DNA of 38,103 nucleotides from Candidatus Altimarinota bacterium (GTDB lineage Bacteria; Patescibacteriota; Minisyncoccia; Phycocordibacterales; UBA5272). The stretch is taken from NCBI GenBank assembly GCA_021734745.1, contig JAIPIK010000009.1:1-38103 (forward strand), read 5' to 3'. The notes below the pieces were generated by a model. The model was not told the DNA's origin, did not search any database, and worked only from the letters and a program-made list of their open reading frames with translations. Position 1 is the first letter of the stretch. The number at the start of each line of letters is the position of its first letter. Made by a program: the position numbers and the translations under genes. Below are positions 2,383 through 26,112 of this stretch, one piece after another.

Positions 2383-2982
2383 ATGAAATACATAATTGGT
2401 ATTGATGAAGTTGGTCGAGGTCCTATTGCTGGACCTGTTGTTGTATGTGCATGTGCAATTATGGAAGGAACTGAGTTATTAAGTCTTTTTCCTAATAATA
2501 AATTAAAAGACAGTAAAAAACTAACAGAGAAAAATAGAGAAAAAATAAGAAGTAAATTAAATATTCTAAATAGTGAAAAGAAAGTTGTGTGGGGGGTAGG
2601 GGAAGTAAGTGCAAGAAGAATCGACGAGATAGGAATATCTTTATCAATAAAAGAAGCAATGAATGACGCATTATTAAAGCTAGAGGATATCGGAGTATCA
2701 ACAAAATCCAAAGTAGTATTGGACGGGTCACTTTTTGCCCCAGAAAGATATATCAATCAAGAAACATTTATTAAAGGTGATGAAAAGTTTGTTGAGATTT
2801 CACTTGCTTCTATTATAGCAAAAGTTTATCGCGATAATCTGATGACAGATATTTCAAAAAAGTTCTCAATGTATGGATTCGAAAATCATGTTGGATACGG
2901 TACTAAGGCACATTACGAAGCTATTTCAAAATACGGAATGACGACGCAGCACAGAAAGAGTTTTTTGAAGAAATTGCAGTAA
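2383..2982 (+). CDS. rnhB: Ribonuclease HII
   Basis: RNase HII cleaves the RNA strand of RNA/DNA hybrids and nicks at single ribonucleotides in DNA, starting ribonucleotide excision repair. The protein has 199 residues, the usual size. The N-terminal signature GIDEVGRGPIAGPVV holds the catalytic pair D8 and E9. The other acidic ligands are D114 (VVLDGS) and D151 (KVYRDN). LKDSKKLT (41-48), ASIIAKVYRD (142-151) and the C-terminal GYGTKAHYEAI and GMTTQHRKSF blocks are all family hallmarks. Start ATG 2383 has TATAAT 11 nt upstream (2366-2371) and no Shine-Dalgarno, so the leader would be only a few nucleotides. It is monocistronic, followed by msrA after 46 bp. Confidence 0.96.
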   Translation: MKYIIGIDEVGRGPIAGPVVVCACAIMEGTELLSLFPNNKLKDSKKLTEKNREKIRSKLNILNSEKKVVWGVGEVSARRIDEIGISLSIKEAMNDALLKLEDIGVSTKSKVVLDGSLFAPERYINQETFIKGDEKFVEISLASIIAKVYRDNLMTDISKKFSMYGFENHVGYGTKAHYEAISKYGMTTQHRKSFLKKLQ

Positions 2983-2987
2983 TTTTT

Positions 2988-2999
2988 AAGGTATACCTT
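2988..2999. promoter_or_regulatory. 12-bp perfect palindrome upstream of msrA
   Basis: AAGGTATACCTT is self-complementary and sits 17 bp before the msrA -10 hexamer (TATACT 3017-3022), roughly where a -35 element would lie. It could be a repressor operator or chance; no regulator is known. Confidence 0.3.
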
Positions 3000-3028
3000 T
3001 AATATTTTATTGGGTGTATACTTTATAT

Positions 3029-3568
3029 ATGACAAAGACACTTATTCTCGCAGGAGGATGTTTCTGGTGTTTGGAACATGATATGCGTCAGGCTGTTGGT
3101 GTTATTTCTGTTGTTTCTGGCTATTCCGGAGGGGAGACATTTAATCCATCTTATGATGACCACGAAGGTCACAGAGAAGCCATTTTGGTGGAATATAATG
3201 CAACAGAAACTACTTATAAAAAATTGTTACAGTATTTTATTGATCACATTGATCCGACAGATGGAGAAGGGCAATTTACAGATATTGGTGAAAGTTATAG
3301 ACCTGCAATTTTTTGCGAAAATGAAGAAGAGAGAGATATTGCAAAAAAAGTAATTGATGAACTAAATAAAAGTGGGGTGTATGAAGTTCCTTCAGCAGTA
3401 GAAATTCTTTTGCGAAAGCCATTTTATAAAGCTGAAGAGTATCATCAGAATTATGCAGAGAAGAATTCTACACAATATGGATTGTATCGTCTTGCAAGTG
3501 GACGTGAGGATTTTGTTCAAAATACCTGCGAAATAAGAAAGGAGAAAAATATTATTTGGAGTGAGTAA
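3029..3568 (+). CDS. msrA: Peptide methionine sulfoxide reductase MsrA
   Basis: MsrA reduces methionine-S-sulfoxide in proteins using thioredoxin, an oxidative damage repair role. Start ATG 3029 gives 179 residues. The GTG at 3014 lies upstream of the -10 and is rejected. TATACT (3017-3022) ends 6 nt before the ATG, so transcription should begin at or next to the A of ATG (leaderless). The signature GGCFWCLE (9-16) holds nucleophile C11, with C14 nearby. The middle has SGYSGG, HEGHREAILVEY (family GHAEVVxVxYDP) and HIDPTDGEGQFTDIGESYRPAIF; the C-terminal part has EEYHQNYAEKN. A late Cys (NTCEIRKE) could be the resolving residue. The end is 71 bp before the 3640 gene, and that gene's promoter starts within a few bases of the stop. 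Confidence 0.95.
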   Translation: MTKTLILAGGCFWCLEHDMRQAVGVISVVSGYSGGETFNPSYDDHEGHREAILVEYNATETTYKKLLQYFIDHIDPTDGEGQFTDIGESYRPAIFCENEEERDIAKKVIDELNKSGVYEVPSAVEILLRKPFYKAEEYHQNYAEKNSTQYGLYRLASGREDFVQNTCEIRKEKNIIWSE

Positions 3569-24234: not shown

Positions 24235-24270
24235 AAAAATACTGCAAGGCAAAGCCTTGCAGTATTTTTA
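24235..24270. terminator. Strong intrinsic terminator after the FKBP gene
   Basis: A perfect 16-bp stem (24235-24250 with 24254-24269) with loop AAA and a T run inside the descending arm. It faces the minus-strand RNA terminator at 24296-24330, so the two transcripts converge here. Confidence 0.93.
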
Positions 24271-24295
24271 ATTTAATTTTAGTTAAATATTATGT

Positions 24296-24330
24296 ATAAA
24301 AACAAAATCCGGGACATGAACATGTCCCGG
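24296..24330 (-). terminator. Intrinsic terminator of the tandem RNA
   Basis: CCGGGACATG (24309-24318) and CATGTCCCGG (24321-24330) form a GC-rich stem; on the minus strand it is followed by ATTTTGTTTTT. This is a clear Rho-independent terminator for minus-strand transcription. Confidence 0.88.
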
Positions 24331-24383
24331 ACCAGATAAGCATTTTGGCTACAAACCAAAAAATCAGCTTACCTTATCTCATC

Positions 24384-24414
24384 CCCCCGAAACGGACGCA
24401 TTGCCGACGGGAAG
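24384..24414 (-). repeat. 31-nt box, copy of module 2
   Basis: One of two near-identical 31-nt direct repeats (period 128 bp). On the minus strand the ends UUCCCG and CGGGGG can pair (two G-U), enclosing GGC-AAUGC-GUC. Confidence 0.9.
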
Positions 24415-24511
24415 GAGGTGTAGATTTAACGCTGTAGTCAGTTTTGCTCTGCCACAGTCGGGTACCTATACTTTGATCTACGAATCAAAAAACGTATATA
24501 CCCTTACCAAG

Positions 24512-24542
24512 CCCCCGAAACGGACGCATTGTCGACGGGAAG
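24512..24542 (-). repeat. 31-nt box, copy of module 1
   Basis: Differs from the other copy at one base (plus-strand T24532 versus C24404). In the small inner stem this turns a G-U pair into A-U, so pairing is kept. Confidence 0.9.
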
Positions 24543-24558
24543 TATTGCGTAGAATTTA

Positions 24559-24587
24559 ATTATATTCAATATATATTATAGAGTCAA
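24559..24587 (-). promoter_or_regulatory. Consensus promoter of the tandem RNA
   Basis: On the minus strand TTGACT (24587-24582), 17-bp spacer, TATAAT (24564-24559). Start predicted near 24552, precisely at the CUACG that opens module 1. The RNA diverges from the ATP-grasp gene at 24653. Confidence 0.82.
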
Positions 24588-24652
24588 TATAATTAGCATG
24601 CTTTTTTAAGTTAAAACTACTAGCTAAAAGAGGTATCTGATATACTATATTA

Positions 24653-25597
24653 ATGATAAAAGGATCTCGTAGTCTTCCAGATATTGCAGTGCTTCGTGGA
24701 GGTAAAAAAGATTTTAAACAGTCACTATTAGAAGGGGCTGAAGTTTTGACGTCACTCACAAAGCTAGGATATCATCCACTAGATGTATTAATAGATACTG
24801 ATGGAAATTGGACAACTAAAGGCAAACCAACAGATGCTCATATGGTTTTTGCAACCGCACATACAGTCGTAGACACAACAAGAACAAAAGGAGAAAAGTA
24901 TCAAGATCTAGCTAAGAAGATGAAAATACCTTTGTTGTTTTCTCAAGCACATGATGTAACTTTAGACAGGGAAGATATGTACAGACTTTTAAGACAACAA
25001 GGGGTTAAAGTTCCAGACACTGTTGTTGTGAGAGCAAAAGCACCTCTTAAAGATAGCTTGTTTCGAGATTTGTGGTCAAAGTATCACACCCCACTTCTTG
25101 TGCGACCTCTTACAAAAAATGAAAGTGCACCATCAAGACTTATAAAACTTTTTTCTGACTTAGAAAAAACAATTCGTGATTATCATAGTAAAGGTATAGA
25201 TACACACGTCCTTACATATCGTAAAGCATCAACAGTTTCGGTCGCGTTACTACCTAATTTTCGTAATCAAGATTTATACATACCAGTATTCGTCGAAACT
25301 TTTAATGTTAATAATGAGCTTCCTCATAAAGACTCAGTTGTGCGCCCACATCTACAAGCACCTCAGATAAAAAAAGATAAGATGAAGGAACTCGCAACAA
25401 AAGTATACAAAGCTTTAGATCTAAAAGGACCAGCTACCGTAGATGTTATTAGTTATAATAATAATCATATCGTTGTGAATGTGGATACTGCACCGTCGTT
25501 AAGAAAAGAAGGTAGGTTCATGCAAGCATTAGAAACAACTGGAGTAGATGCTGGGCATTATATTCATTCACATATACAAAATGAATTCGAGAGATAG
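24653..25597 (+). CDS. ATP-grasp protein related to D-alanine-D-alanine ligase, divergent
   Basis: A 314-residue protein with the Ddl-like order of domains: an N-terminal PDIAVLRGG and KLGYHPLDVLID segment, a central lid region (VPDTVVVRAKA, TPLLVRPLTKNESAPSRLI) and a C-terminal GPATVDVISYNNNHIVVNVDTAPSL. In Ddl the last motif reads E-V-N-T-x-P, with Glu and Asn binding Mg-ATP. Here it is N-V-D-T-A-P, so Glu is Asn and Asn is Asp, and the usual Arg before the VD strand is Thr. The glycine-rich ATP loop is also not obvious. It may be a different ligase or a weakened one; D-Ala ligation is not assured. TATACT (24641-24646) ends 6 nt before the ATG, leaderless. Adjacent to the divergent RNA gene. 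Confidence 0.75.
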   Translation: MIKGSRSLPDIAVLRGGKKDFKQSLLEGAEVLTSLTKLGYHPLDVLIDTDGNWTTKGKPTDAHMVFATAHTVVDTTRTKGEKYQDLAKKMKIPLLFSQAHDVTLDREDMYRLLRQQGVKVPDTVVVRAKAPLKDSLFRDLWSKYHTPLLVRPLTKNESAPSRLIKLFSDLEKTIRDYHSKGIDTHVLTYRKASTVSVALLPNFRNQDLYIPVFVETFNVNNELPHKDSVVRPHLQAPQIKKDKMKELATKVYKALDLKGPATVDVISYNNNHIVVNVDTAPSLRKEGRFMQALETTGVDAGHYIHSHIQNEFER

Positions 25598-25664: not shown

Positions 25665-25688
25665 TTTTTTAAATAATAAATATTGCAA

Positions 25689-25730
25689 AAGTAAAAACCG
25701 CCCCTCTGGTAAGTACGGCGGTTTTTACTT
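25689..25730. terminator. Strong terminator between convergent genes
   Basis: A 14-bp stem (25689-25702 with 25717-25730) with a 14-nt loop; A and T tracts on both sides. It ends the ATP-grasp transcript and the opposing DUF1508 transcript. Confidence 0.9.
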
Positions 25731-25788
25731 GTTACTTTTTTACTAAAAAGTGACGTCTTTGTTTGATGCGTTTTTTGTGTGTTGCTTC

Positions 25789-26112
25789 TTAGGCTTTCAC
25801 TCCAACAACTTTTTTGGTAGCTGGCTTTTTCGTGATTACCTTCGATGCTACTACCTTTTCCGCAACCTTTTTTCTTTTTACAGAATTGGATTGCTTCCCA
25901 GTTGTTTTTGAAGCCGCATCTGCTTTTTTATCGGCATCAACGAGAACGGCCTTAGACACCCATTCAGAGAGCCTCTTTACTTGCGCCATGGCTACTGACT
26001 TCTTCTCAAACTTTGAAGAAGAGAAGATCAGTTTTCCATCGCGAGAAAGAAGTTTGAATTGGTACAGACCCTTCTTGTCTTTATAGACTTCAAGGATTGT
26101 CGTTTTTGACAT
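25789..26112 (-). CDS. DUF1508/YegP-like domain with Lys/Ala-rich histone-like tail
   Basis: A 107-residue protein. The first 50 residues (LEVYKDKKGLYQFKLLSRDGKLIFSSS, then KSVAMAQVKRL) fit the small beta-beta-alpha fold of DUF1508 (YegP). The remaining half is low complexity and strongly basic, with repeated Lys, Ala and Val (SVKRKKVAEKVVASK, TKKPATKKVVGVKA), like the tails of bacterial histone H1-like proteins. Such tails bind nucleic acids nonspecifically, so a nucleoid- or RNA-binding role is plausible. Start ATG 26112; the upstream region has a consensus promoter at 26219-26248 and a leader of about 100 nt. Terminator at 25689-25730. It is in an otherwise gene-free spacing, monocistronic. 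Confidence 0.75.
   Translation of the reverse strand: MSKTTILEVYKDKKGLYQFKLLSRDGKLIFSSSKFEKKSVAMAQVKRLSEWVSKAVLVDADKKADAASKTTGKQSNSVKRKKVAEKVVASKVITKKPATKKVVGVKA

Follow-up and report, generated by a model that had tools for sequence, protein, structure and literature searches.

Tandem-aptamer riboswitches of the glycine and glutamine types place two pseudoknot-capable modules in tandem beside an intrinsic terminator. Type III antitoxin RNAs (ToxI, AntiQ) combine a promoter, tandem pseudoknot-capable repeats in arrays of ~35–60 nt, and a terminator, and protein-sponge RNAs (CsrB/RsmZ) are free-standing RNAs that present a repeated docking element and end in a terminator. Searches of the open-access literature turned up next to nothing about RNA-based regulation in ultrasmall bacteria of the kind examined here.

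Here we describe a putative small RNA gene of ~255 nt that shares these features in part. It lies on the minus strand of a contig from a Candidatus Altimarinota bacterium (GCA_021734745.1, contig JAIPIK010000009.1; Bacteria; Patescibacteriota; Minisyncoccia; Phycocordibacterales; UBA5272). The window, the whole stretch of DNA that was analysed, comprises positions 1–38,103 of the forward strand, and the host genome analysed has 960,017 bases. Unlike the tandem riboswitches, the host RNA has no downstream same-strand gene, no Rfam match and no known ligand. Its units are ~92 nt long at a 128-nt period, in contrast to the shorter type III antitoxin arrays, and its neighbour is a convergent FKBP gene rather than a toxin gene. 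It differs from CsrB/RsmZ in having only two units and no identified CsrA-type partner, and a direct reading of the sequence found no repeated GGA loop motif. Where a CRISPR array would have unique spacers of ~25–45 nt, the two boxes described below are 97 nt apart, with sequence that is diverged but structurally alike. If the interpretation given below is true, a tandem pseudoknot-capable RNA that is present or absent between sister species would be a test case for regulation in reduced genomes, and its two built-in module copies would serve as an internal control for probing. Without homologs it stays a single-lineage curiosity.

Transcription signals and module architecture

The features of the putative gene are as follows.

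24559–24587, minus strand: promoter TTGACT-17-TATAAT (−35 at 24587–24582, −10 at 24564–24559, 17-nt spacer)
24460–24552, minus strand: module 1 (CUACG strand, box, hairpin with CGUAG loop)
24548–24552, minus strand: CUACG strand of module 1, complementary to CGUAG at 24482–24478
24512–24542, minus strand: first copy of the 31-nt box, stem UUCCCG/CGGGGG around loop UCGACAAUGCGUCCGUUU
24460–24503, minus strand: module 1 hairpin, with CGUAG in the apical loop (24482–24478)
24432–24457, minus strand: linker hairpin CUGUGG..CUACAG between the modules (z −2.7 for the 36-nt linker)
24334–24423, minus strand: module 2 (CUACA strand, box, hairpin with UGUAG loop)
24419–24423, minus strand: CUACA strand of module 2, complementary to UGUAG at 24353–24349
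24384–24414, minus strand: second copy of the 31-nt box, with one A-to-G difference
24334–24374, minus strand: module 2 hairpin, with UGUAG in the apical loop (24353–24349)
24298–24333, minus strand: intrinsic terminator GUCCGGGACAUG-UUCA-CAUGUCCCGGAU plus U-tract (stem 24333–24306)

An earlier note on this DNA had described a consensus minus-strand promoter and an intrinsic terminator around ~250 nt, and all of these coordinates were verified. The promoter scores 11/12 against the consensus; 72 such sites exist genome-wide (both strands, 16–18 nt spacing), so that the promoter, though good, is not rare when taken alone. The terminator stem has 12 pairs and ends at 24306, followed by the U-tract (fold z −4.75). 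We infer that the unit is transcribed, with the likely +1 at or just inside the CUACG of module 1, which would possibly truncate this strand. The whole transcript folds with a z of −3.1, and its G+C content is 0.47 against 0.35 for the genome, an excess that is usual for structured RNAs of AT-rich genomes.

The overlapping open reading frames are short and have TTG or GTG starts only, leaving no plausible gene in the region, in agreement with the earlier description. Since, in addition, the 128-nt period is not divisible by three, the conservation of the box is not due to coding. The gene of an FKBP-type isomerase is convergent with the RNA and an ATP-grasp gene is divergent from it; the predicted RNA ends at its own terminator. 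At the level of signals the locus is an independent small RNA gene, with its own promoter and terminator and no conserved reading frame, and a free-standing small RNA gene here is likely to be real.

Other sequence features were seen around the gene. A 19-nt imperfect palindrome (84%) at 24557–24595 covers the promoter of the RNA and is a possible operator. Two AT-rich 17-nt direct repeats (82% alike; 24270–24286 and 24553–24569), 283 nt apart, flank the gene. They could be an insertion trace, but they are AT-rich and short, so they are probably due to chance. Very near the start codon of the ATP-grasp gene is a TGnTATACT-like extended −10 (window ~24620–24653), also seen in many relatives (L139–L152), a position that suggests leaderless transcripts.

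The two modules share one architecture at a 128-bp period, as originally described, and the complementary strands CUACG/CGUAG and CUACA/UGUAG are both present. The boxes (24542–24512 and 24414–24384) are identical at 30/31 positions, compared to only 28/53 of the columns after the box, which indicates that the box is the part held constant, although recent gene conversion could also explain the box identity. No match arose by chance in 100 shuffles, and no third copy of the box exists elsewhere in the 960-kb host genome. In module 1, the pseudoknot pairing extends to 6 bp (UCUACG/CGUAGA).

Chance controls and covariation

Taken one module at a time, at least five Watson-Crick pairs between the upstream strand and the loop were found in 8% (module 1) and 11% (module 2) of composition-matched shuffles; both modules would have such a pairing by chance in 0.9% of cases if independent. 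The predicted pseudoknot is therefore supported, yet by itself not compelling, in keeping with the caution voiced at the outset that it might partly be chance. Both loop hairpins were more stable than dinucleotide shuffles (z −2.7 for module 1 and −2.95 for module 2). The box hairpins were no more stable than their shuffles (z −0.2 and −0.7).

When the two modules were aligned, 98% of 50 cells paired across 25 pairs, with four two-sided changes including the pseudoknot pair; sliding the partners by 1–3 columns as a control left 0–1 two-sided changes. With two sequences the shuffle control has a floor of ~26/500, and these same sequences had served to choose the structure, so that the covariation is support rather than proof. 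The suggestion that the hairpin stems differ in sequence while keeping their shape thus holds in terms of stability and two-sided changes, with the reservation that the covariation comes only from two paralogous copies.

Searches for relatives

No Rfam 15 family reached its gathering cut-off in the window. At a relaxed E-value only sub-threshold matches appeared, none convincing over the modules; there was no match to a riboswitch, and none over the modules to a ribozyme or CRISPR repeat family, in line with the earlier view that no named family has this box. The box was absent from 147 other genomes in a pattern search allowing up to three mismatches. A covariance model of the module found only its own two copies in 148 relatives and in sets of 380 phylum, 397 order and 384 class genomes; the four sets overlap and amount to ~900 related genomes, and the model is sharp (1.2 effective sequences), so that this result excludes only relatives with a clearly similar box. 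No relatives of the module were found in phage and plasmid collections. In viral contigs, five patterns gave chance matches only, as checked with the covariance model, and a sixth, based on the G009 RNA described below, gave none.

Several candidates were rejected. The one other match of the covariance model, at 30.8 bits in another genome (G412), is without the core of the box. A 17-nt pattern gave >100 chance matches in genome contigs, mostly in GC-rich genomes, with only the own-genome loci extending along the box. Regular-expression matches in six genomes looked coding, and a reversed control likewise returned six; the best further R2 matches lay inside long open frames. The same U/UUU internal loop is found in one further terminator, but the gene before it is unrelated. 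The host RNA is probably a lineage-restricted, accessory regulatory RNA without a family, rather than a demonstrated new class.

The same locus in related genomes

In the closest sister genome, G014, whose ATP-grasp protein is 78% identical, the RNA gene is missing from the same locus, though the order of the FKBP and ATP-grasp genes is kept. G014 also carries ~560 extra bases that are not in the host genome (L139, ~2500–3060); they lie between its ATP-grasp gene and the gene that follows.

A more distant member of the same genus, G009, carries an RNA with the same layout in the corresponding position and on the same strand (L268/L141). It is divergent from the orthologous ATP-grasp gene, lies upstream of it and is near nrdB, as in the host. 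In order, it comprises an extended −10-like TGGTATACT, GGAGCUACG, a 7-bp stem, a hairpin, an CGUAGCUC strand and a terminator. The 7-bp stem is of different sequence and encloses UCG...CGUUU, and there is an 8-bp complementarity between the 5′ GAGCUACG and CGUAGCUC. The G009 RNA thus resembles the host RNA in its CUACG, in the GUCG...CGUUUC internal loop within a 7-bp stem, in the 8-bp GAGCUACG/CGUAGCUC complement and in the terminator; it differs in being a single module and in its outer stem, loop and spacer. If it is homologous, the box stem gains two two-sided changes (in an alignment for which four bases were removed from the G009 loop).

A leave-one-out model built from modules 1 and 2 gave the G009 RNA 12.2 bits and an E-value of 0.68 across 53 kb, which placed it only third, and the same model gave no match at E up to 10 against the whole G009 genome. 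Limited to the orthologous intergenic strands, the E-value becomes ~0.04 by our own scaling, with the 8-bp complement as extra evidence. By plain alignment, sequence similarity alone was not significant (p ~0.15–0.25). The structural pattern has a background of ~0.6 per Mb, and was defined after the G009 match had been spotted by eye. A BLAST search with the G009 RNA in relatives and phages returned itself and short chance matches only. On balance we lean slightly towards the G009 RNA being a divergent single-module homolog, a suggestive case that the leave-one-out scoring does not establish. A lack of homologs with conserved pairing was named earlier as refuting; by this measure the proposal is only partly saved, by the one possible case in G009, with no clear homologs in the ~900 relatives. 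It is rather doubtful that the two RNAs represent an undescribed class, with a 5′ strand, a hairpin bearing the invariant GUCG/CGUUUC internal loop and another hairpin with a loop that pairs with this strand, located at the nrdB/ATP-grasp locus, single in G009 and tandem in the host, and binding a protein or small molecule in trans.

Proposed function and alternatives

Promoter and terminator signals, a tandem box, hairpins with compensatory differences, and the lack of both coding potential and a same-strand downstream gene can be read from the sequence directly. From these we tentatively propose that the ~255-nt RNA is independently transcribed, structured and trans-acting, with two docking modules, probably for a protein. 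Within each module the box hairpin would be followed by another hairpin, and pairing between the loop of the latter and the 5′ strand of the same module would close a pseudoknot, which is predicted to form in solution. The near-identical boxes would offer the same docking surface twice to a partner in trans, more probably an RNA-binding protein, for sequestration or scaffolding, than a metabolite. We infer docking of a protein through a process of elimination, and also since what stays constant is an internal loop present twice. With FKBP convergent and ATP-grasp divergent, there is no cis target downstream, and the ATP-grasp gene has its own conserved promoter beside its start codon, so that the RNA is not its leader. 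Of the earlier expectation of a trans-acting or ligand-sensing RNA, the trans-acting part stands on the absence of a downstream gene and the convergent FKBP; start-site antisense targets were not found, and nothing pointed to ligand sensing.

Action in trans could also take the form of antisense pairing with mRNAs, by means of the box or of the anti-SD-like CACCUCCUU in module 2; the two copies would double the seed. Bacterial small RNAs with tandem seeds are known, and CACCUCCUU exactly matches the 3′ end of the 16S in the host genome; however, it is absent from module 1, and an SD-like core occurs in only 98/770 start regions. Against 770 predicted start regions, for which the gene starts are crude, neither the box and its loop nor the two 5′ strands nor the linker reached duplex energies better than those of shuffled sequences, and docking is therefore favoured over start-site antisense pairing. 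The antisense reading as a whole we regard as unlikely. The strongest apparent antisense partner lay inside an RCC1-like repeat gene. A pair of ligand-binding aptamers acting on the adjoining terminator is another reading: module 2 abuts the terminator, and an intrinsic terminator placed after tandem pseudoknotted aptamers has the look of a riboswitch expression platform. Yet no same-strand gene follows the RNA, and with FKBP convergent it is not in a 5′ UTR position, which makes a cis riboswitch improbable; no Rfam riboswitch was found even at relaxed E-value, and visual inspection showed no clear alternative anti-terminator pairing.

The locus could instead act as DNA, as a pair of binding sites or an insertion remnant, or be decaying sequence without an RNA function. 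The patchy presence among relatives and the 17-nt repeats around the gene fit such an origin, and the CCCG/CGGG half-sites of the box, ~22 bp apart, would suit a dimeric DNA-binding protein. But the hairpins outside the box diverge while keeping their fold with compensatory changes, a promoter and terminator flank the whole, and the repeats are short, AT-rich and probably chance, so this explanation too seems quite unlikely. Two direct pseudoknot-capable units in one transcript might, finally, be processed apart, as in a new ribozyme, a type III antitoxin or a CRISPR-like repeat RNA, and dimers of this kind are known from type III antitoxins and from RNAs flanked by ribozymes. This self-cleaving or guide-like reading is highly improbable: no Rfam ribozyme or CRISPR repeat family lies over the modules, the gene after the terminator is that of the FKBP-type isomerase on the opposite strand and not a toxin gene, and the box-to-box spacing is far beyond that of CRISPR spacers.

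A conserved element in a neighbouring 3′ UTR

A second element lies 1.2 kb away from the small RNA.

25685–25788, minus strand: conserved 3′ UTR element of the gene at 25789–26112 (also at L139–L150)

No Rfam family matched it at gathering (best sub-threshold match ohsC, 34.8 of 50 bits). A 20-nt block, ACGCAUCAAACAARGACGUC, is near-invariant, with one A/G change, in 13/13 same-genus genomes examined, and is followed by 20–45 variable nt and a terminator hairpin. The stem of this hairpin is 100% paired and covarying (13 two-sided cells, 0/500 shuffles), and its loop ACUUACCAGAGG is near-invariant. The 3′ UTR element is far better conserved than the small RNA and is the stronger evidence for a new structured RNA.
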